Below are positions 19,531-29,095 of a stretch of 64,000 nt of DNA, piece by piece. The number at the start of each line of letters is the position of its first letter. Within the stretch, counting starts at the first letter, position 1. Under the pieces are notes generated by a model. It made no database searches. It was not told the DNA's origin and was given only the letters and a program-made list of their open reading frames with translations. The translations under genes were made by a program, and so were the position numbers. Origin of the DNA: Geomonas subterranea (GTDB taxonomy: Bacteria; Desulfobacterota; Desulfuromonadia; Geobacterales; Geobacteraceae); assembly GCF_019063845.1 (NCBI RefSeq), contig NZ_CP077683.1:2604001-2668000 (forward strand), in the 5' to 3' direction.

Positions 19531-21165
19531 ATGATCAGCGCATCAAACGTCACCCTTTCCTACGGCAAGAGGGTACTGTTCAAGGACGTAAATATAAAGT
19601 TCACCCCGGGCAACTGCTACGGTCTGATCGGGGCCAACGGCGCCGGCAAGTCGACCTTTCTGAAGATCCTCGCCGGCGACATCGAGCCGGACAAGGGTGA
19701 GATCTCGGTCGGCAAGGGGCGCATCGCGGTGCTAAAGCAGGACCAGTTCGCCTACGACGAGCACACCGTCTTCAACACCGTCATCATGGGGCACAAGAAG
19801 CTCCACGAGGTGATGGCCGAGCGCGATGCGATCTACTCGAAACCGGAGTTCAGCGAGGAGGACGGCATCCGTTCCGCGGAGCTCGAGGCCGATTTCGCAG
19901 AGATGAACGGCTACGAGGCGGAGAGCGAGGCCGCCGTGCTTCTGAACGGCCTGGGCATCCCCGAGGAGCTGCGCGGCAAGCTGATGAAGGAACTGGAGGC
20001 GGGCGACAAGGTGCGCGTGCTCCTGGCGCAGGCGCTTTTCGGCAACCCCGACGTGCTTCTCCTGGACGAGCCGACCAACCACCTGGACCTGAAATCTATC
20101 TCGTGGCTGGAGGACTTCCTGTACCGCTTCCAGAACACGGTCATCGTCGTGTCCCACGACCGTCACTTCCTGAACCAGGTCTGCACGCACATAGCCGATA
20201 TCGACTTCAGCCGCATCCAGGTCTACGTCGGCAACTACGACTTCTGGTACCAGGCGAGCCAGCTGAACCTGAAGCAGCGCCAGGACGAGAACCGCAAGGT
20301 TCAGGACAAGGCCGCCGAGCTGAAGGAGTTCATCCAGCGCTTCTCCTCCAACGCATCGAAGGCGAAGCAGGCGACCTCCAGGAAGAAGCTCCTCGAGAAG
20401 CTCACCATCGAGGACATGCCGGTCTCCTCCCGCAAGTACCCGTGGGTGGTGTTCAAACCGGAGCGCCCCTGCGGCGACATCATCCTCGAGGTGAAAGGGC
20501 TTACCAAGACGGTGGACGGCGTGCAGGTGTTCAAGGACCTGGACCTGATCGTGAGAAAGGGAGACAAGATCGCCTTCGTGGGGAGCAGCTCGCTGGCGAA
20601 GACCACCCTGTTCCAGATCCTCGCAGGCGAAATGGAGCCGGACGAGGGGACCTTCCGCTGGGGCGTCACCATCACCAACGCCTACTTCCCCAAGGAGAAC
20701 GGCGACTACTTCAAGGGGGACCTGAACCTGATCGAGTGGCTGGGGCAGTACTCCCCGCCGACCGAGGGGGAGAGCTTCGCGCGCGGCTTCCTGGGGAGGA
20801 TGCTCTTCTCCGGCGACGAGGCGACCAAGAAGACCAGCGTACTATCCGGCGGCGAGCGTGTGCGCTGCATGCTCTCCAGGATGATGCTCACCGGCGCCAA
20901 CGCCCTGATCCTGGACGAGCCGACCAACCACCTGGACCTCGAGTCGATTACCGCGCTCAATAACGGGCTCATCTCCTTCACCGAGGTGGTGCTGTTCGCC
21001 TCCCACGACCACGAGTTCGTCTCCACCGTGGCCAACAGGATCATCGAAATCACCCCGGGCGGCATCATCGACCGCGACATGAACTTCGACGACTACCTGG
21101 AGGATGCCGACGTCATCGCCGAGCGCGAAAGGCTCTGCAACGGGCACGCGGAGCTCAGCCTGTAA
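19531..21165 (+). CDS. ybiT: ABC-F ATPase, YbiT type
   Basis: 544 residues, two ATPase domains and no membrane segments; ABC-F proteins act on the ribosome. Domain 1: Walker A GANGAGKST, Walker B LLLDEPTNHLDL. Linker ~240-310. Domain 2: signature LSGGERVRCML, Walker B LILDEPTNHLDL, but Walker A reads GSSSLAKTT, with Ala for the Gly before the Lys. The tail ITPGGIIDRDMNFDDYLE is typical of YbiT. ATG 19531 is chosen for AGGAGC spacing. A terminator-like hairpin is in the leader. Confidence 0.93.
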   Translation: MISASNVTLSYGKRVLFKDVNIKFTPGNCYGLIGANGAGKSTFLKILAGDIEPDKGEISVGKGRIAVLKQDQFAYDEHTVFNTVIMGHKKLHEVMAERDAIYSKPEFSEEDGIRSAELEADFAEMNGYEAESEAAVLLNGLGIPEELRGKLMKELEAGDKVRVLLAQALFGNPDVLLLDEPTNHLDLKSISWLEDFLYRFQNTVIVVSHDRHFLNQVCTHIADIDFSRIQVYVGNYDFWYQASQLNLKQRQDENRKVQDKAAELKEFIQRFSSNASKAKQATSRKKLLEKLTIEDMPVSSRKYPWVVFKPERPCGDIILEVKGLTKTVDGVQVFKDLDLIVRKGDKIAFVGSSSLAKTTLFQILAGEMEPDEGTFRWGVTITNAYFPKENGDYFKGDLNLIEWLGQYSPPTEGESFARGFLGRMLFSGDEATKKTSVLSGGERVRCMLSRMMLTGANALILDEPTNHLDLESITALNNGLISFTEVVLFASHDHEFVSTVANRIIEITPGGIIDRDMNFDDYLEDADVIAERERLCNGHAELSL

Positions 21166-21285
21166 CAGGGATAAAAGGGATAACAGGGATAGGGAAAGAG
21201 GTAAAGGGGGCTCCGGGTTGGAGTCCCCTTTTTTGTTGTGCCATCCCCTCGCCCTCCGGGAGAGGGGCAGGGGTGAGGGCGCCGC
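21164..21285 (+). repeat. Direct repeat copy A (~122 bp) at one edge of the glycan operon
   Basis: Begins AACAGGGATAAAAGGG overlapping the ybiT stop, contains the ybiT terminator (AAGGGG-CTCC / GGAG-CCCCTTTTTT, about 21203-21235) and ends GTGAGGGCGCCGC. Nearly identical to 28274-28394 in the same orientation. Confidence 0.85.
21203..21236 (+). terminator. Intrinsic terminator of ybiT
   Basis: AAAGGGGGCTCC / GGAGTCCCCTT stem with GGGTT loop and six T; part of repeat copy A. Confidence 0.8.
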
Positions 21286-21327
21286 GACAGTCTGGACCTC
21301 TTCGCCCCGCCCTCGCCCCCCTGGGGG

Positions 21328-23295
21328 TCACCGCAACCCCGCCACTTCCCGCAGCCGGGCTATCTTCGGCTCCAGGTCGGCCCGAGGGGCAAGGGCATAG
21401 GCGGTTTCGTATGCGGCAAGCGCCTCGGCATGCCTGCGCTCCCGGACGCAGAGCAGCGCCAGGAAAAGATGCGCATACTGGGCGGAGGGATCGACGGCAA
21501 TGGCTTCCTGGTACTTGCGGCGCGCACCCGCCAGATCCCCCTGCGCCTCCAGGATCTGTCCCATGAACGCGTGGGGACGGGCGTCCTGCGGTTCCAGGCG
21601 GACGGCGGTGGCCAGCGCGTCGGCCGCCTCGCGGTACCTTCTCTGAACCAGGAGCGCCCCCCCCAGGAAGGTGTAGGCAGCGCCGGAGCGCGGGTCGAGC
21701 CTGATGGCGGTCTCGAATTCGCGCACCACCTCGCCGAGCACCTCGTTTTGCCTGGCGTCCATCGGCTGCAGCATGACGTTCACATCGTCGGTGTGCCAGG
21801 GGGGAAGGGTATTGGCCAAGGCGACCCCCAGCGAGAAGTGGGGGCGATGCTTCGCCGGGCTCTTGCGTACCGCATCGCGCCAGAGGGAAACCGGCGTCTC
21901 CCATACCGTGTTCCTCATGTACGCGGCCGCCGCACTTGCCGTGACCAACAGAACCAGGACGGCGATAGCCGGTCGCGAGGTACCCAGCGGCTCACCGGCA
22001 CGCCGCGGCAAAAGAGAGAAAGCGCCGGAGACTGCGGCCATGAAGAAACCGACCGAGGGGAGATAGGCGCGGTGCTCAAAAATCAGATCGTCGATCGGTA
22101 CCACGCTGGACTCGACGCTCAGGGTGATGAAGAACCACCAGATACCAAAGCCGGCAAGCGCGAGCGGGGCGCAGCGGGGATCGCGGCGCGACCGGAACAA
22201 AAGCCATGCGCCCACCGCCGCAAGTGCCAGGAGAAGGGCCAGCGGGAGCAGTACGGCCGGGGCCAGCAACACCTTCTGCAGCGGGTAGTCGTAGTCGAAG
22301 TTCTGCCCCACCGGTAGCAGCAGAAGCCTCAGATAGGTGGCGACGACGCCGAACTGGGTCATCAGGTACTCCCAGGACGAGACCTGCTTGAAATTGACTA
22401 GGTTCACCGCCCCCGCCACCTTCCCCCCCTGGGCCGTGGAAGCCATCGCCGAAAGCTGCATCAGCTTGACAGGGATTATCGCCATGGTCAGCGCGAAGGG
22501 AAGCAGACGGAGCAGGCGGGCGCCGGTGAAGGCGCCCCGGAAAAAGACCCATTCGTAGAGCAGTATCAAAGCCGGCAGGGTGAAGGCGTTCTCCTTGGTT
22601 TTCATGGCCAGCACGCAGGCGAGCAGGGAAGCCAGGTACAATCCGTTGCGGGCCGCGCTGCCCCGGGCCAGCCGGCCGGCCACGTAGAGCACCAGCGTCC
22701 CGATACAGAAAAAAGCGACCAGCGGGACGAAGCGCTGGATGACGTAGGTGACCGCCTGGGTCTGCAGCGGGTGGCAGACGAACAACAAAGAGCAGGCGAG
22801 GGGTAGATAGCAGAAACGCTCCGCGGGCTGGTCGGCCTCCCCTCCCTCGGCCACACGAAGCAGCGGCGTCCTCAGGGTGAGCCATAAGAGCAGGTACACG
22901 AGCAGGGCGTCGACCAGGTGCAACAGGAGGTTGACCACGTGATACCCCCCGACGTCCAGGCCGTGGAGGGCGTAGTTGAGCGCGAAGGTGAAGTAGGCGA
23001 CCGGGCGCAGCATGAAATTGTTCTTGAGGTCGGGGTTGATCGGGAGCGCGAACACCCGTTGCGGGTCCGTGAAGGCCCCGAAATCCTTGATCAGGGGGTT
23101 GCCAGCCAGAAACGGCTGGTCATCGAACACGAAGGGGGCCCAGATGATGTTGGAGTAGACGGCGATCCCCACCGTCAGGATGAGCAGGATATGGACCAGG
23201 GGGTCGCGCCACAGGTTCAGCTCCTCCTCCGCGGCCGGCGCCGCCGGAACGGGCTGTACCTCCCCCGTACCTGCCGCTTTTTTTCGCTTCTTCAT
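21328..23295 (-). CDS. TMTC-like membrane protein with C-terminal TPRs (putative protein O-glycosyltransferase)
   Basis: 655 residues. Cytoplasmic tail 1-27, then about 11-13 membrane helices. The first periplasmic loop has the acidic pair APFVFDDQPFLAGNPL, the catalytic-type motif of the GT-C/PMT fold. The C-terminal ~210 residues carry TPRs (TAIRLDPRSGAAYTFLG, ATAVRLEPQDARPHAFMG, EAIAVDPSAQYAHLFLA). Eukaryotic TMTC O-mannosyltransferases share this layout. ATG 23295 overlaps the upstream methyltransferase by 4 bases, and it is the last gene of the operon. Inference: transfers a lipid-linked sugar to exported proteins. Confidence 0.8.
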   Translation of the reverse strand: MKKRKKAAGTGEVQPVPAAPAAEEELNLWRDPLVHILLILTVGIAVYSNIIWAPFVFDDQPFLAGNPLIKDFGAFTDPQRVFALPINPDLKNNFMLRPVAYFTFALNYALHGLDVGGYHVVNLLLHLVDALLVYLLLWLTLRTPLLRVAEGGEADQPAERFCYLPLACSLLFVCHPLQTQAVTYVIQRFVPLVAFFCIGTLVLYVAGRLARGSAARNGLYLASLLACVLAMKTKENAFTLPALILLYEWVFFRGAFTGARLLRLLPFALTMAIIPVKLMQLSAMASTAQGGKVAGAVNLVNFKQVSSWEYLMTQFGVVATYLRLLLLPVGQNFDYDYPLQKVLLAPAVLLPLALLLALAAVGAWLLFRSRRDPRCAPLALAGFGIWWFFITLSVESSVVPIDDLIFEHRAYLPSVGFFMAAVSGAFSLLPRRAGEPLGTSRPAIAVLVLLVTASAAAAYMRNTVWETPVSLWRDAVRKSPAKHRPHFSLGVALANTLPPWHTDDVNVMLQPMDARQNEVLGEVVREFETAIRLDPRSGAAYTFLGGALLVQRRYREAADALATAVRLEPQDARPHAFMGQILEAQGDLAGARRKYQEAIAVDPSAQYAHLFLALLCVRERRHAEALAAYETAYALAPRADLEPKIARLREVAGLR

Positions 23296-24053
23296 AGTGC
23301 CTCCTGTCCCGCGCCACCCTTTCTGGCGACGCAAAATAACGATGACCCGACCGGCAGCGTGCCCCTTCGCAGCAAGGCGTTCTCCGCCCGCATGACCCGC
23401 AAAAGGAGCGTGTTCACCAGAGGTGACGGGAGCGCCACGTCCGACTCGCCCCCCTTGCGGCGCCCCCACGCCCCCCGCAGCAGCCGGTACGTCGCTATGA
23501 GCGGGAACAAAAGGCCCACCCGGAAGGTGAGCTTTTCGGCAATGAAACCCGCGGCTGTGAGCCTGTTGCTAAGGGTAGGCACGTGGTAGCGCTCACGGGT
23601 GTGGACCGCGACGTCGTGGGAGCTGCGCAGCCATTCCAGGGCGACCAGGTTCAGTACCAGCATCCCCCCCGGCCGCAGCGCCGTACGGAACGCCTTCATC
23701 ACCTCCACGTCGCTGCGGACCCCCGTGTGGTAGAGAACATCGATGCAGGTGATCACGTCGTACGACTCCGGCTCAAGCACCAGAGTGTTCAGGTCCCTCC
23801 GTTTCGCCACGGCGCCGCGTCGGCGGCAGTAGCGGATCGCCTCCGGTGACGCATCCACCCCCTCCACCTCCCCCAAGGGGGCCAGAAGCTGGCACAACCT
23901 TCCGGTGCCGCAGCCGGCGTCGAGGATGCGCAAAGGCCTCCCCAGGCGCCCTTGCTCCCGCGTCACGTGCGCAAGGATCAGTTCATGCAGCCCCACGTAC
24001 CACCAGTGCGTCTCCTCCGCCTCGAACATGACCCGGTACTCCGCGGGGTTCAT
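23292..24053 (-). CDS. Class I SAM-dependent methyltransferase
   Basis: 253 residues. SAM motif I ILDAGCGTGRLCQLL near 41-55, acidic VEGVDASPEAI, and motif IV VITCIDVLYHTG; the N-terminal ETHWWYVGLHELI is common in sugar/lipid-linked methyltransferases found beside glycosyltransferases. Overlaps by 4 bases both the aminotransferase gene before it and the membrane TPR gene after it. Likely methylates the deoxysugar (for example on the amino group) or its carrier-bound form; substrate is inference. Confidence 0.85.
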   Translation of the reverse strand: MNPAEYRVMFEAEETHWWYVGLHELILAHVTREQGRLGRPLRILDAGCGTGRLCQLLAPLGEVEGVDASPEAIRYCRRRGAVAKRRDLNTLVLEPESYDVITCIDVLYHTGVRSDVEVMKAFRTALRPGGMLVLNLVALEWLRSSHDVAVHTRERYHVPTLSNRLTAAGFIAEKLTFRVGLLFPLIATYRLLRGAWGRRKGGESDVALPSPLVNTLLLRVMRAENALLRRGTLPVGSSLFCVARKGGAGQEAL

Positions 24054-25177
24054 CGTCCCCCCCGGAAAAAGCGCCGCACCGTCTCGACCACCCTTTCCGC
24101 GTGGCGTGTGGGCAGCTCCGGGTAGATGGGAAGAGAGAGGATGCTGCGGGCCAGCCGCTCGGTGACAGGCAGGTCCCCCTCCCGGTTTCCCAGGCCGGAG
24201 TAGCCACGCATCAGGTGCACCGGGTGCGGGTAGTTGATCTTGGTCTCGATTCCCTCCTTGTCCAGGAACTCCATCAGCCGGTCGCGGTGCTGCGTGCGCA
24301 CCGTGTACAGGTAGTACTGGTGCCGGCGCCCCGGGCGGACGGCCGGGCGTGCAATATCCCCCACCCCGGCGAGCCCCTCGTCGTATATCCGCGCGATGTC
24401 GCGCCGTGCTGATGCGGCTGCCTCGATCCCGGGAAGCTTCAGGTTCAGGATCGCCGCCTGAACCTCGTCCAGGCGGGAATTAAAGCCCTCCTCCTCGGCG
24501 TGGTACCCCTCCGCGATGCCGTAAAAGCGCAGCCTCCTGAGCCGCGCCGCGAGATCCGGGTCTGACGTGGTCATGGCACCCGCGTCGCCGAACGCCCCGA
24601 GGATCTTGGTCGGGTAAAAGGAGAAGGCGCCCACGTCACCGAAGCTGCCGGCCCGCTCCCCCCCGTAGGCGGCGCCCATGGCCTGGGCGCAATCCTCGAT
24701 CACCCACCCTCCCCGCCGCCGCGCTATCTCCTGCAGCGGCGCCATATCCGCCATCTGCCCGCACAGGTGCACCGGCAGCAGGCAACGGGTGCGCGGGGTG
24801 ACGGCGGCCTCGACGCGGGAGACATCCATCAGGTAGGTGTCCTCCTCGACGTCGACGAAGACGGGGGTCGCTCCGCTGGCGCGGATCGCGGCCACGGTCG
24901 GGACGGCGGTGTTGGAGACGGTGATCACCTCGTCTCCCGCCCCTATCCCCAAAGCCTTCAAGGCCAGGAGGATGGCATCCGTTCCGGAATTAACGCCAAC
25001 GGCGAACGCGGCCCCGCAATACGCCGCCAACCCCTTCTCGAACTCCGCCACCTCCCGCCCCAGCACCAGCCGGCCGGATGAAAACACGCGGTCCACCGCG
25101 GCCAGATACTCCGCGCGGCGCGGTGTGTATGCTCCCAGATAGTCCCAGTAGCGGACGGTGTCATTCAGACCTGGCAT
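24050..25177 (-). CDS. DegT/DnrJ/EryC1-family sugar aminotransferase
   Basis: 375-residue PLP enzyme transferring an amino group to a keto-sugar nucleotide. Seen: GVNSGTDAILLAL, VEDCAQ-type VIEDCAQAMGA (PLP Asp), and the Schiff-base Lys in FSFYPTKILGAFGDAGA; tail motif NYPHPVHLM. ATG 25177 has GGGGGAAG ahead; an earlier in-frame TTG is unlikely. Beside a 2,3-dehydratase the likely product is a 3-amino-2,3,6-trideoxy or 3-amino-2-deoxy sugar, as in EvaB-type pathways; this is inference from context. Confidence 0.93.
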   Translation of the reverse strand: MPGLNDTVRYWDYLGAYTPRRAEYLAAVDRVFSSGRLVLGREVAEFEKGLAAYCGAAFAVGVNSGTDAILLALKALGIGAGDEVITVSNTAVPTVAAIRASGATPVFVDVEEDTYLMDVSRVEAAVTPRTRCLLPVHLCGQMADMAPLQEIARRRGGWVIEDCAQAMGAAYGGERAGSFGDVGAFSFYPTKILGAFGDAGAMTTSDPDLAARLRRLRFYGIAEGYHAEEEGFNSRLDEVQAAILNLKLPGIEAAASARRDIARIYDEGLAGVGDIARPAVRPGRRHQYYLYTVRTQHRDRLMEFLDKEGIETKINYPHPVHLMRGYSGLGNREGDLPVTERLARSILSLPIYPELPTRHAERVVETVRRFFRGGR

Positions 25178-25228
25178 CACTTCCCCCTTCCCCGGCAACT
25201 TCCGCTGCGTGCGCCCCCCGGTGCGTCA

Positions 25229-26629
25229 TCACAGAAGGCATGAGATGATGCTCCGCGCGCAGGAATTGACCTGCTCACCCAGGTGCACCAGCACGAGCAC
25301 CTGCTGCATGGTCAACCAGCGGTAGTCGGGGGGAAGCGCCAGTTCGACCCCCTCGGGAAGCCTCAGGATACGGTGCAGGTTGTATTCGCGGTAAAAACGC
25401 GCCCCTTCCTCGGCCTGGCGGCTCTCGTGGACCAGCGGAAAGCGGCCGGGTGCGGAAAACTCCCCGAACAGGAACGGCTTTTCCAGCTTCTGGTTCCCTT
25501 CGTAGTTCCCTTGCGTGAACTGGGCCGTGGGGGCGAGTTGCACCGTGGTGCGGTTGCCGGCCTCCGCCTTGGCCTGCATCAGAAGTTCCGTCCCGTCGGG
25601 CCCCTCGCGGAGCAGCAACCCGATGATCCCGGGGGCGGGATTTTCGATGATCGGCTGTCCCCATGAGCCCACCTCCCTGGTTTGCGAGGAGACCGTTAGC
25701 CCCACGATCCGGAAAAAGGCCCCGGATACGTGGGAGAAGTACCCCTTTTCGTCCAGGCGCCACTCCGTAAGATCGTGGAGGCCGATGCGCCTGGTCAGCA
25801 TATGCGTCACGGCCCTGCAGTCGTCCAGCCACTGCAGCGTATCCCGCAGCCCCTCCCGCCCGGCTGTGGAAACCGTTCCCCCCGCGCTCCCGTCGCTGAC
25901 GAGGCAGGCCAGGATGCTGCGCGTGCAGGCGTTTACCAGGTTGTCGCGGCGGATGAGGGTCGCGATCTGGCGCAGGGTCAGCCAGATGAACCCCTCGGGA
26001 AGTTCGACCGGCACCTCATCCCCCGCCACGATGATCATGTTGCGATTGGACTTGTACAGGAACCTACCGCCATCCTCGGTTTGCAGGCGGGCAAACAGCC
26101 GCCGGGCAGGGTCCGGCTCGATGAAGCGTTCGATGAAGAGCGGCCTCCCCCCGCCATGAGCTCTGGTGTAGTTGCTGTAGGTGGCCTGGACGGTCGGGGA
26201 GAGCTGGACCCCTCCCACGTTGCCCGGTTCTTCCTTGGCCTGGAGGCAGAAGTGGAGAGTGCCGTCGATGTATTTGGCCAGGATCCCGAGAATCCCGATT
26301 TCCGGCTGCTCGATGATCGGCTGGTCCCATTCCAGTTGGTGGTGCCTCACCCGGTGCCGGACGTGCACCCCCATCACGCTGAAGAAGCGACCGCTGTCAT
26401 GCCGGATGTTTCCGCTCGCCGGTTCCCTGTGCCACCCCTGCACCGCGTCCAGTGGGACCTGCATGTTACAGAGCGAACATCTCTCGCGCGACGCGGCGAC
26501 CCACCGGTCGACGAAGGCATCGTCGTGCAGGGCAAAGCCGCCGCTTCTCGAACCGGCGACCCCGGCTGCGTGGCCGGGCGAAAGGGTGACGCCTGCCGCG
26601 AGTATCGCGGCGCTCATATTAGCCGCCAT
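25229..26629 (-). CDS. NDP-hexose 2,3-dehydratase (EvaA/TylCVI type)
   Basis: 466 residues, the normal length of this family, formed by two tandem homologous domains (~1-240 and ~241-466). Each has the signature W/GQPIIE-x-P-E/A-GI-GIL/LL, a QAK-x-E-x-GN segment, QLSPTVQATYSNY / QLAPTAQFTQGNY, and a closing N-x-C-x-RSI-x-CL. The family removes water from dTDP-4-keto-6-deoxyglucose, the first step of 2-deoxysugar synthesis. It overlaps the glycosyltransferase gene by 11 bases. Such genes are best known from actinomycete antibiotic clusters; here it is in an envelope-glycan context. Confidence 0.9.
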   Translation of the reverse strand: MAANMSAAILAAGVTLSPGHAAGVAGSRSGGFALHDDAFVDRWVAASRERCSLCNMQVPLDAVQGWHREPASGNIRHDSGRFFSVMGVHVRHRVRHHQLEWDQPIIEQPEIGILGILAKYIDGTLHFCLQAKEEPGNVGGVQLSPTVQATYSNYTRAHGGGRPLFIERFIEPDPARRLFARLQTEDGGRFLYKSNRNMIIVAGDEVPVELPEGFIWLTLRQIATLIRRDNLVNACTRSILACLVSDGSAGGTVSTAGREGLRDTLQWLDDCRAVTHMLTRRIGLHDLTEWRLDEKGYFSHVSGAFFRIVGLTVSSQTREVGSWGQPIIENPAPGIIGLLLREGPDGTELLMQAKAEAGNRTTVQLAPTAQFTQGNYEGNQKLEKPFLFGEFSAPGRFPLVHESRQAEEGARFYREYNLHRILRLPEGVELALPPDYRWLTMQQVLVLVHLGEQVNSCARSIISCLL

Positions 26630-27566
26630 TGCGGTCCCTCCTCGCGGCCCAGGTCTCCCTGACGATGAATTGCGGCTCCTGGTTCAGCTTGAGATAGATG
26701 CGCCCCACGTACTCGCCCACGACCCCCGTCGCCAGCAGCTGGACTCCCCGGAAGAACATGGTGATGGAGTTCAGCGATTGGATGTCGCTTGGGTCGTTCA
26801 GCATGGGTAGCCATCCCCGGATCAGCATGACGGAGACGGAGTAGATCCCCGAGAGGGTCAGGATCGCTCCCGCGATGGCCAGCAGGCGCAGCGGGATCAG
26901 CGAATAGCTCACGAAGACGTTGCCCCAGAGATCGATGAGCTTCTTGACTGTGTAACCGGACCTCCCTTCGCGGCGCGCGTCATGCCGCACCTCGACCGTG
27001 CCGATATTGCGGGTGCTGCGCAAGACGAGGGCATCGAGGTAGACGTTCGGGCTTTTGTGTGCGACGAGCTGGTCCACCAGGAAGCGGTTCATCACCTTGA
27101 AGCTCGACAGGTAGAGGTTGGCCGGCTTGTCGAGGGTGACGCGGGCAACCGTACCGTTGAGGTAGCTCCCGAGGTTGCGGAACCAGCTGTCGCTTTTTTT
27201 CGGGTATTGGCAGTAGACCACGTCGTACCCCTTGGCTATCTCGGCCAGCAGCTTGGGCACCTCCGCGGGCGGGTTCTGGAAGTCGTCGTCCATGACGACC
27301 ACGTAGTCGCCGCGCGCCTGGTTCAGCCCGGCCATCACCGCGTTGTGTTCACCGAAATTGCGGGACAGGGAGAGATAGGTCACCGTCTCCGGCGATGCGA
27401 CGTGAAGCTGACGACAGACGGCATCGGAGCCGTCGCGGCTGTAATCATTCACCAGCACGATCTCGAGCCGGTAATGGTCCTTTAGGTGAGAGACCAGGGC
27501 CTGGCACAGGGGCGCGATGGTCGTCTCGGCGTTGAAGACAGGGATGACGATAGATATGAGGGGCAT
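26619..27566 (-). CDS. GT2 polyprenyl-phosphate glycosyltransferase (GtrB/DPM-like)
   Basis: 315 residues. The GT2 catalytic domain 1-220 has ISIVIPVFNAE, VLVNDYSRDGS, metal-binding VVMDDDFQNPP and the R-x-x-R region RREGRSGYTVKKL. Two C-terminal membrane helices (~230-252 and ~264-285) are as in GtrB, which loads a sugar from a nucleotide onto undecaprenyl phosphate. First gene of the five-gene minus-strand operon. It would supply the lipid-linked donor for the TMTC-like protein. Confidence 0.92.
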   Translation of the reverse strand: MPLISIVIPVFNAETTIAPLCQALVSHLKDHYRLEIVLVNDYSRDGSDAVCRQLHVASPETVTYLSLSRNFGEHNAVMAGLNQARGDYVVVMDDDFQNPPAEVPKLLAEIAKGYDVVYCQYPKKSDSWFRNLGSYLNGTVARVTLDKPANLYLSSFKVMNRFLVDQLVAHKSPNVYLDALVLRSTRNIGTVEVRHDARREGRSGYTVKKLIDLWGNVFVSYSLIPLRLLAIAGAILTLSGIYSVSVMLIRGWLPMLNDPSDIQSLNSITMFFRGVQLLATGVVGEYVGRIYLKLNQEPQFIVRETWAARRDRNGG

Positions 27567-27766
27567 GGCACTCTTTCACGCTGGTGTCCACGGGGGACGT
27601 GGCAAGACTTCCGGCACGCGCGACAAGGCACGACGGCTCGACCGCGCAGCTTCAAGCAGGCGGGACGGGGCGCACCGTGGGCGCAGGTATGACGCGACCC
27701 GGCCTTGTGACGGATGCCACAGGCGAAGGTGCAGTACACCGGCCGGTTTGGAAACGAGTCAGGGGA

Positions 27767-28093
27767 TCAGCAGGAGGGTGGGGAACGACCGGGAAGGGTC
27801 GGCGTGCAGGGGCTCTCGGTATGAGCTGCCAGGAGCCCGGTCAATGCGACGAGGCGTCCGATCGGTTCGTTGAGGTTGTGGTGGTGGAATTCACCGTCGA
27901 TGGCGTGGAGGGGGAAAGTATCGCTGCAATTGGATGCGGATGCCTGCTTCTGGACGCACAGGTTGAGGACGGCCCGCGGCTTGGGCTTGGGCCCCGGGGA
28001 ACGGTCGAGGAGCGCGATCCTCATGCCTGCGAAGACCAGGAAGAAGATCACGGCGAACGCCGCCGCAACTTTTACCTTTCTGCTGTTCACCAT
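27767..28093 (-). CDS. Possible small single-pass membrane protein
   Basis: 108 residues from ATG 28093: basic start MVNSRKVKVAAAF, one hydrophobic segment (~8-26), then a Pro/Lys-rich stretch GPKPKPRAVLNLC and a His-rich HHHNLNEP. Weak ribosome site (GGGA). No family recognised. It is 200 bp upstream of the glycan operon on the same strand and could be its first member or a chance frame. Confidence 0.4.
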   Translation of the reverse strand: MVNSRKVKVAAAFAVIFFLVFAGMRIALLDRSPGPKPKPRAVLNLCVQKQASASNCSDTFPLHAIDGEFHHHNLNEPIGRLVALTGLLAAHTESPCTPTLPGRSPPSC

Positions 28094-28483
28094 CGGTCCC
28101 AGGGCTGGCTCCACAAGATCACGCCCCACCGGAATTTGGCTGACAGTTTCAACTGCAGAACAGGTAAGGCGACGCGAAACATAACGTGAAACGGGTCGAC
28201 AAGTCAACACCAAATTAGACGAGACACATTCAAAAAAGTAGAACCCGCGCACACGGAGCGAGCCTGCAAAGCGAACAGGGATGAAGGGGATAAAAGGGAT
28301 AAGGAAAGTGGTAAAGGGGGCTCCGGGTCGGATCCCCTTTTTTGTTGTGCCATCCCTTCGCCCCCCGGGAGAGGGGCAGGGGTGAGGGCGCCGCCACGAG
28401 GAGGATCTACCTTCGCGGCACCTCCCTCCACTGGGGGCACCCTCTCCCGGGGGAAGAGGGGTATCCAGGTAGGGCGGAGGATC
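28094..28483. other. Intergenic region with repeats
   Basis: 390 bases without a credible gene. Holds direct-repeat copy B (28274-28394) with its terminator-like stem and further REP-like C/G-rich sequence to 28462. Confidence 0.7.
28274..28394 (+). repeat. Direct repeat copy B (~121 bp) at the other edge of the glycan operon
   Basis: Starts AACAGGGATGAAGGGG, contains GTAAAGGGGGCTCCGGGT and CCCCTTTTTTGTTGTGCC, ends GGTGAGGGCGCCGC. Same order and orientation as 21164-21285 with a few substitutions. Here the terminator stem serves no plus-strand gene. Confidence 0.85.
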
Positions 28484-29095
28484 TTACGCGCCGATCTTCA
28501 GAAAGTTCCTTACCCCGGTGAAGACGATCTGGGCGGCGAGGGCGGCGACGAAGAGGCCGGTCAACTTGCTCAGGATGGTGATCCCCTTCTTGCCGACGAT
28601 GTGCTCGATGAACGAGGCGCAGACCAGCAGTATCCCGACGCAGAGAACCGCCATGGCGAGGGCGGCAAGCCCCACGAACACCTGCCAGTTGTGCTGCACC
28701 TCGGCGCCCATGACCAAAAGCGCGCCGGTGGTCCCGGGACCGACCGTCACCGGTATCGCCAGGGGCACCACGGAGATGGCGCCGCGCTTTTCGCTCGGAG
28801 GCGCGCTGTCGTCGCCGTGCACCATGTGCACCGCAGAGAGGAAGAGGAGGCTTCCCGCACCGATCCTGAAGGAGTCGAGCGTGATGCCGAACAGGGAGAA
28901 GAGGGTGTTGCCGAAGGAGTACAGGACGAAGCAGGCGACCAGGACGGCGAGGGTCACCCGCAGGGCCGTGGCGCGCCGCTCACCGGCGGTCAACTCGGGG
29001 GTCATGGCCAGGAAGGTGGAGAGCACGAAGAAAGGGGTGAGCAGGAAGAAGAACCTGATCCACACGGTGAAGAAAAAATCCGAATAAGCTTCCAT
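28484..29095 (-). CDS. MarC-family integral membrane protein
   Basis: 203 residues with six membrane helices; family signature elements FFLLTPFFVLSTFLAM, GSLLFLSAVHMV, and PLAIPVTVGPGTTGALLV with conserved PxxxGPG. Inner-membrane protein of unknown transport or scaffold role; the old link to multiple antibiotic resistance has been withdrawn for E. coli MarC. Single gene, ATG at 29095. Confidence 0.9.
   Translation of the reverse strand: MEAYSDFFFTVWIRFFFLLTPFFVLSTFLAMTPELTAGERRATALRVTLAVLVACFVLYSFGNTLFSLFGITLDSFRIGAGSLLFLSAVHMVHGDDSAPPSEKRGAISVVPLAIPVTVGPGTTGALLVMGAEVQHNWQVFVGLAALAMAVLCVGILLVCASFIEHIVGKKGITILSKLTGLFVAALAAQIVFTGVRNFLKIGA

Follow-up and report, generated by a model that had tools for sequence, protein, structure and literature searches.

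The window analysed here is a 64,000-nucleotide stretch of the Geomonas subterranea genome (C1:2604001-2668000 of a single contig of 4.99 Mb), and our subject is a five-gene sugar operon within it, together with a small leader gene upstream (Table 1). We think that these genes probably form a leader-controlled, lipid-linked aminosugar transfer system, in which the sugar would be loaded onto a lipid and transferred by a glycosyltransferase of the C fold class (GT-C), with expression set by a stalling leader. The five operon open reading frames (ORFs) all lie on the minus strand. Their coordinates, and the overlaps between the GtrB-like and dehydratase genes (11 bases), the aminotransferase and methyltransferase genes (4 bases) and the methyltransferase and TMTC-like genes (4 bases), agree with a first-pass annotation made from the sequence of the window. 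That annotation proposed that the operon builds a methylated 3-amino-2-deoxysugar and transfers it from a lipid carrier to exported proteins. Its parts hold, as does, at the level of prediction, its GT-C fold; its acceptor and amine position are less secure, and it overlooked the leader gene and a nearby rmlB.

Table 1. Features of the operon and its upstream region (window positions)
Feature	Position	Strand	Remarks
Predicted sigma-70 promoter	28178..28207	-	TTGACT-18-TATGTT; ~85 bases upstream of leader
Leader gene	27767..28093	-	108 amino acids; membrane anchor at N-terminus (by eye); PKPRA motif; RSPP at C-terminus, two residues short of the end
Leader-gtrB intergenic region	27567..27766	-	200 bases; conserved blocks
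GtrB/ArnC-like polyprenyl-phosphate glycosyltransferase	26619..27566	-	315 amino acids; Pfam Glycos_transf_2; PDB ArnC 9hwj, Sll0501 5ekp
Nucleoside diphosphate (NDP)-hexose 2,3-dehydratase, EvaA type	25229..26629	-	466 amino acids; tandem domain; Pfam; PDB 4j7g
DegT/DnrJ/EryC1 sugar aminotransferase	24050..25177	-	375 amino acids from ATG 25177; 382 from TTG 25198; Pfam, PDB
S-adenosylmethionine (SAM)-dependent methyltransferase	23292..24053	-	253 amino acids; Pfam, PDB
TMTC-like protein	21328..23295	-	655 amino acids; predicted GT-C membrane domain ~30-480; TPRs ~480-650

Distribution and inheritance of the operon

Pfam recognised two Hexose_dehydrat copies in the dehydratase (457.8 bits) and DegT_DnrJ_EryC1 in the aminotransferase (377.1 bits), with methyltransferase, Glycos_transf_2 and TPR matches elsewhere among the operon proteins. 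Of the two possible aminotransferase starts, ATG 25177 has by eye the better ribosome site. An Rfam scan of the window gave no match, and P0001 had no match in viral contigs.

The Pfam dehydratase family is rare: a sample of 297 genomes of the phylum had it in 7, and none of 14 control genomes had it. Within the order, dehydratase homologues were found in 33 of 141 genomes (both counts include the window genome), with 53-88% identity over full-length matches and lower or split matches in G361, G376 and G411. We read the neighbourhoods of all 33 loci, the window's own included. A GtrB-like gene stands beside the dehydratase in 32 of them (not L092), directly before it in 31 of the 32 other genomes, and an aminotransferase is present in all 33, following the dehydratase in 32/32 other genomes. 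The methyltransferase is found in 30 loci, being absent from L063 and L092, and the L075 sequence ends before it. The five-gene operon is therefore real and not a chance arrangement, since the GtrB-like gene and the aminotransferase adjoin the dehydratase in nearly all other carrier genomes of the order.

The first-pass annotation had asked whether dehydratase and TMTC-like genes co-occur in Geobacterales, and they do at 18 of the 33 loci; 8 others carry instead a PMT_2 gene of cluster c7, none carries both, and 7 carry neither; four of these 7 (L069, L075, L082 and L084) run up to a contig edge or stop close to one. The TMTC-like and c7-type PMT_2 proteins have no similarity by blastp (best E 0.31). 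At L074 and L085 the TMTC-like gene is 1.4-3.1 kb from its neighbour.

In the genus the operon is present in 8 of 19 genomes, and a MarC gene adjoins the leader in all 8 carriers. Ten of the 11 non-carriers were fetched (G339 lacked a MarC match). In nine of these ten, MarC and ABC-F genes are neighbours of each other, with no leader or operon match above 60 bits, and L224 has MarC alone. The gap between MarC and ABC-F is 82-278 bases in 7 non-carriers and ~1.7 kb in 2. Because the site that in the window holds the segment between ABC-F and MarC (21165-28484) is nearly empty in 7 of the 10 non-carriers fetched, the leader and operon seem to have been gained or lost as one block.

The putative sugar pathway

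The dehydratase matches EvaA (4j7g) with an E-value of 5.7e-90. It has two Nudix-like domains, seen as two Pfam domains, and its E134 and E185, both in domain 1, align with the catalytic E139 and E190 of EvaA as counted on the 4j7g alignment. The proposal that the operon starts 2-deoxysugar synthesis is supported by the sequence of this enzyme. The 4,6-dehydratase that would supply its substrate is, as the first-pass annotation held, outside the window: an RmlB gene (TIGR01181, 487.6 bits, above cut-off) lies at C1:2669009-2669995, ~1 kb past the right window edge, and by eye an RmlD-like gene adjoins it.

The 3-ketoreductase was likewise reported missing from the window. A Gfo/Idh/MocA oxidoreductase is found in 23 of the 33 loci, with 'Sugar 3-ketoreductase' 3rbv, which we take to be KijD10, as its best PDB match (E 1.5e-53). 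The window lacks this gene, as do L062-L068, L079 and L091, and a search of the window genome found no ortholog, the single match having 29% identity over part of its length. Where this KijD10-like enzyme is present, only C4 would stay keto and amination would fall at C4, which points to a 4-amino-2,4,6-trideoxy sugar at those loci and makes the 3-amino position proposed earlier questionable. At the window locus, which is without the ketoreductase, amination could be at C3 or C4; a 3-ketoreductase is not required for a genuine 3-amino route. The strongest PDB matches of the aminotransferase include 2oga (presumably DesV), QdtB and WbpE, and perosamine synthetase and ArnB match less strongly. 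DesV, QdtB and WbpE are C3 enzymes; perosamine synthetase and ArnB are C4 enzymes.

Seven of the 33 loci (L015, L066-L068 and L071-L073) have a B12-binding radical SAM gene close to the TMTC-like gene, which suggests variants of the sugar, possibly with an extra C-methylation.

The best-known 2,3-dehydratases belong to antibiotic pathways (PMC8987622; other papers drawn on here are PMC7801869, PMC11127046, PMC10987492, PMC12992588 and PMC9426467). The operon shares with the EvaA/KijD10 antibiotic deoxysugar pathways its dehydratase and, in its relatives, a 3-ketoreductase. A secondary-metabolite pathway is nevertheless highly improbable here, as inspection by eye of the ORFs between 18 and 31 kb revealed no polyketide or peptide synthase, and the place of a soluble transferase is taken by a lipid loader of the membrane together with the predicted GT-C enzyme. 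The product would be expected on a lipid carrier, unlike an antibiotic sugar.

Putative lipid loading, the predicted GT-C domain and the possible acceptor

The closest solved relative of the GtrB-like protein is ArnC (9hwj, E 1.5e-44), and Sll0501 (5ekp, E 5.2e-32) also matches. Together with its Glycos_transf_2 match, this supports the first-pass assignment to lipid loading, and the protein is by sequence a GtrB-type polyprenyl-phosphate sugar synthase of the kind found in Gtr systems.

A full-length model of the 655-residue protein, built with 56 sequences, had a predicted local distance difference test score (pLDDT) of 88.6 and a predicted template modelling score (pTM) of 0.89, with helices 483-652 forming the TPR part. 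Foldseek with this model returned TPR proteins that swamped other matches, and the membrane half (residues 1-500, 18 sequences) was therefore folded alone (pLDDT 82.3, pTM 0.86). Against the PDB its first match was ArnT (E 1.6e-3, TM-score 0.41), in a structure bound to undecaprenyl phosphate, and its second Pmt4 (TM-score 0.48), followed by AglB, oligosaccharyltransferase chains, PglB and others. Among the best 50 of 348 matches, ranks 1-21 consist entirely of GT-C enzymes and of chains from oligosaccharyltransferase or glycosylphosphatidylinositol (GPI)-transamidase complexes (Foldseek probability 0.98-1.00), and ranks 22-50 include 6c26 (0.97), ALG3 (0.96) and EmbA (0.57), the others being at 0.30 or below. 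Judging by entry titles, we take the complex chains to be STT3 and PIG-U. Because the matches are consistent in kind, though weak in E-value, we predict that the membrane half is a glycosyltransferase of the GT-C class, in line with the fold and TPRs proposed in the first pass.

The conserved residues of this half recall the TMTC O-mannosyltransferases. Of 56 homologues, 55 have D58 (the other has a gap there) and 48 have D59 (E in 7); K234 and E235 are invariant and T239 is found in 54; E407, R409 and Y411 are again invariant. The published TMTC motifs are DD, KETxxT and ERxxY (PMC7801869). By sequence the protein carries the first two, and the third takes the form ExRxY, with R shifted by one. 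Its likeness to eukaryotic TMTC1-4, which the first-pass annotation had drawn, extends to the predicted GT-C domain, the DD loop, the KE-T residues, the E/R/Y residues (in their shifted spacing) and the C-terminal TPRs; it does not extend to DUF1736, and a mannose donor is not expected for the bacterial protein. Since there is no DUF1736 match, we call it TMTC-like in layout and do not file it as a TMTC family member.

TMTC-like relatives are widespread in the genome collection, with 503 tblastn-confirmed stretches, the best 80 of them mostly in Nitrospirota and Geobacterales. The window genome has a paralogue elsewhere (L040:8279-10066, minus strand; 43% identity over residues 27-610) at a locus without a dehydratase, the genome holding a single dehydratase. 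A more distant paralogue in the same genome (L041, 7379-12327) has the start of a PilA-like pilin at a distance of ~3 kb, and Nitrospirota TMTC-like genes stand beside type IV pilin-like starts at L120 (both sides) and L177 (one side). Pilins were considered as acceptors and set aside: when 84 loci were scanned for pilin motifs near TMTC-like genes, 7 were picked out, and those that we find convincing, L120 and L177 (2 of 80 named loci) and L041, are too few.

The loader and GT-C enzyme resemble ArnC-ArnT, in which a GT2 loader places an aminosugar on undecaprenyl phosphate before GT-C transfer (L-Ara4N to lipid A). They also resemble the three-component O-antigen systems of GtrA, GtrB and a GT-C enzyme, in which a GtrB-like loader and a GT-C gene share an operon (PMC11127046). 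An ArnC/ArnT-like or Gtr-like pair that adds the aminosugar to the lipid A, core or O-polysaccharide of lipopolysaccharide (LPS) is thus a tenable, if less probable, explanation. It would agree with ArnC and undecaprenyl phosphate-bound ArnT being the closest solved matches, with the decoration of O-antigen by Gtr systems and with the one Wzy_C (WaaL/Wzy-type) protein in the genome. It would agree also with L016, elsewhere in the phylum, where related sugar genes occur with GT4-, GT2- and PMT_2-type genes (8 proteins scanned, 2 without a match) in a polysaccharide-type cluster. The operon differs from ArnC-ArnT, however, in its EvaA-type 2-deoxy sugar, methyltransferase, C-terminal TPRs and stalling-type leader, and from Gtr systems in its own rare-sugar genes and TPR-bearing GT-C enzyme. 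A TPR domain is unusual for LPS-modifying enzymes of the ArnT/Gtr kind. The operon showed no gene for a formyltransferase, a deformylase or GtrA (for GtrA, the operon alone was covered), and the flanking genes in the window genus, named by eye as MarC, ABC-F and MTHFR, are not polysaccharide genes.

An exported protein is slightly favoured over LPS as the acceptor because of the TPR domain and the TMTC-like layout. We give a protein somewhat less than an even chance and LPS or another glycan a slightly lower one, and assign the remainder to neither; given the ArnC/ArnT relationship and L016, the protein acceptor of the first-pass annotation is not established.

The leader and the proposed system

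A profile search found leader homologues in 24 of 38 loci, all 24 among the 33 dehydratase loci, and the ratio of nonsynonymous to synonymous substitution rates (dN/dS) lay between 0.16 and 0.43 in 13 of 14 chosen pairs, the other pair not being measurable. The leader is coding, under purifying selection and inherited with the operon. The promoter prediction taken alone is no better than chance (one in the region versus a mean of 1.0 in shuffles), and an alignment of 7 genus loci (all 8 carriers but L068) shows no difference in either hexamer. Folding of the leader-gtrB gap was not significant (z -0.58), with 3 of 60 pairs compensated and an unfavourable covariation term.

Conservation of the leader is confined to two parts, the membrane anchor followed by PKPRA and a C-terminal RxPP-type motif, with an unconserved middle. 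The C-terminal motif is RSPP in 13 of the 24 leaders, RAPP in 7, RASP in 3 and RPPP in 1, and its distance from PRA is 59-66 residues in all 24. An R[ASGP]PP ending occurs in 19 of 610 selected ORFs from the 38 loci, and each of the 19 is a leader upstream of GtrB. Altogether, 25 of 32 operons have an RxPP-type leader upstream of GtrB, counting an ORF at L091 (7662-8012, +) that lies outside the leader family. This ORF has a membrane anchor by eye and a C-terminal RGPP, stands 157 bases before GtrB and may be a case of convergence.

This pattern makes the leader a candidate RAPP-type translation-arrest peptide. Published RAPP-like arrest peptides are mostly small secretory or membrane proteins before regulated genes; they are known before protein-export genes and copper genes, CruR being a RAPP-type leader that controls a copper operon. 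RSPP is reported to be partly permissive in ApdA/ApdP and has also been used as a search motif. Like SecM, ApdA/ApdP and CruR/DUF2946, the leader is a small upstream ORF with an N-terminal localisation signal (the anchor seen by eye) and a C-terminal RAPP-like motif. It differs from them in that the genes downstream would serve sugar transfer, not Sec/YidC or copper functions, and in that the window leader has no Pfam match, DUF2946 included; other family members have scattered matches at E 0.034 or weaker. A literature search, with subscription journals and preprints outside it, found no RAPP-type leader before glycosyltransferase or sugar-tagging genes and no title on such an operon, and 'glycosyl' is absent from the main text of PMC10987492 and PMC12992588.

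At E up to 0.01, the wider leader family occurs in 71 of the 141 genomes of the order. We picked 20 further loci by hand, not at random (L194-L213), and searched the neighbours for families at L209 and L210. By eye, members of the family stand before acetate-permease/IclR and lipoprotein/TPR operons, and on this ground the leader was rejected as an obvious glycan acceptor. The two top-scoring loci have a leader followed by a lone PMT_2 gene (L209) or a lone TMTC-like gene (L210), and so the closest leader subgroup goes with GT-C genes, although the family as a whole does not.

That the leader serves the GT-C enzyme as its own special acceptor or as a structural partner, and is not a regulator, would suit its small size, its predicted anchor, the Ser/Pro/Arg-rich stretch beside the membrane and its inheritance with the operon. 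We consider this unlikely, since the middle is unconserved when RxPP and its spacing from PRA are kept throughout, since family members precede unrelated operons, and since the conservation pattern fits published arrest peptides. A further idea, that the leader is a glycosylation monitor whose nascent chain is recognised by the sugar transfer machinery, contact releasing or holding the RSPP stall in a feedback like that by which SecM monitors SecA, is a long shot.

For the leader-controlled transfer system that we prefer, computation supports the gene content, conserved catalytic motifs, a predicted GT-C fold and a coding leader inherited with the operon; each reaction, a flippase, the acceptor and the stalling are inferred. 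RmlB, encoded nearby, would supply deoxythymidine diphosphate (dTDP)-4-keto-6-deoxyglucose, which the 2,3-dehydratase would convert to a 3,4-diketo-2,6-dideoxy sugar for amination and methylation by the aminotransferase and methyltransferase. The GtrB-like enzyme would load the finished sugar onto undecaprenyl phosphate, and on the periplasmic side the TMTC-like enzyme would pass it to an acceptor kept at or close to the TPR domain. The leader would be a membrane-inserted nascent chain, and a ribosome stall at RSPP would set expression.

Several observations weigh against this proposal. No fold match of the membrane half falls below E 0.001, and the global TM-scores of the best two are modest; the membrane half has no Pfam GT-C or DUF1736 match (18 members, E up to 10), and its sequence profile has no match in the PDB. 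A dehydratase lies within 9 kb at 8 of 80 TMTC-like loci (some flanks are cut by contig ends), and most TMTC-like loci are without such a sugar cassette. The carrier L063 lacks the methyltransferase, no flippase gene was seen within the operon, and the mutual exclusion of GT-C kinds is imperfect, as the TMTC-like genes of L072 adjoin a PMT_2 protein of another kind. At L072 a further ORF separates the leader from GtrB, 2.3 kb away, 7 of 32 operons have no convincing leader in a 900-base upstream scan, and the wider leader family precedes unrelated operons.

The locus joins a pathway for a rare 2-deoxy-aminosugar with a GT-C enzyme of TMTC-like layout and a stalling-type leader. No assigned donor for the bacterial TMTC-like relatives was seen in the available part of PMC7801869 or in literature titles. 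Here the operon's own sugar genes allow the donor to be guessed, so that the natural carriers and non-carriers within this genus offer a direct test of what bacterial TMTC-like proteins do. The leader, if true, would widen the range of genes known behind RAPP-like leaders.

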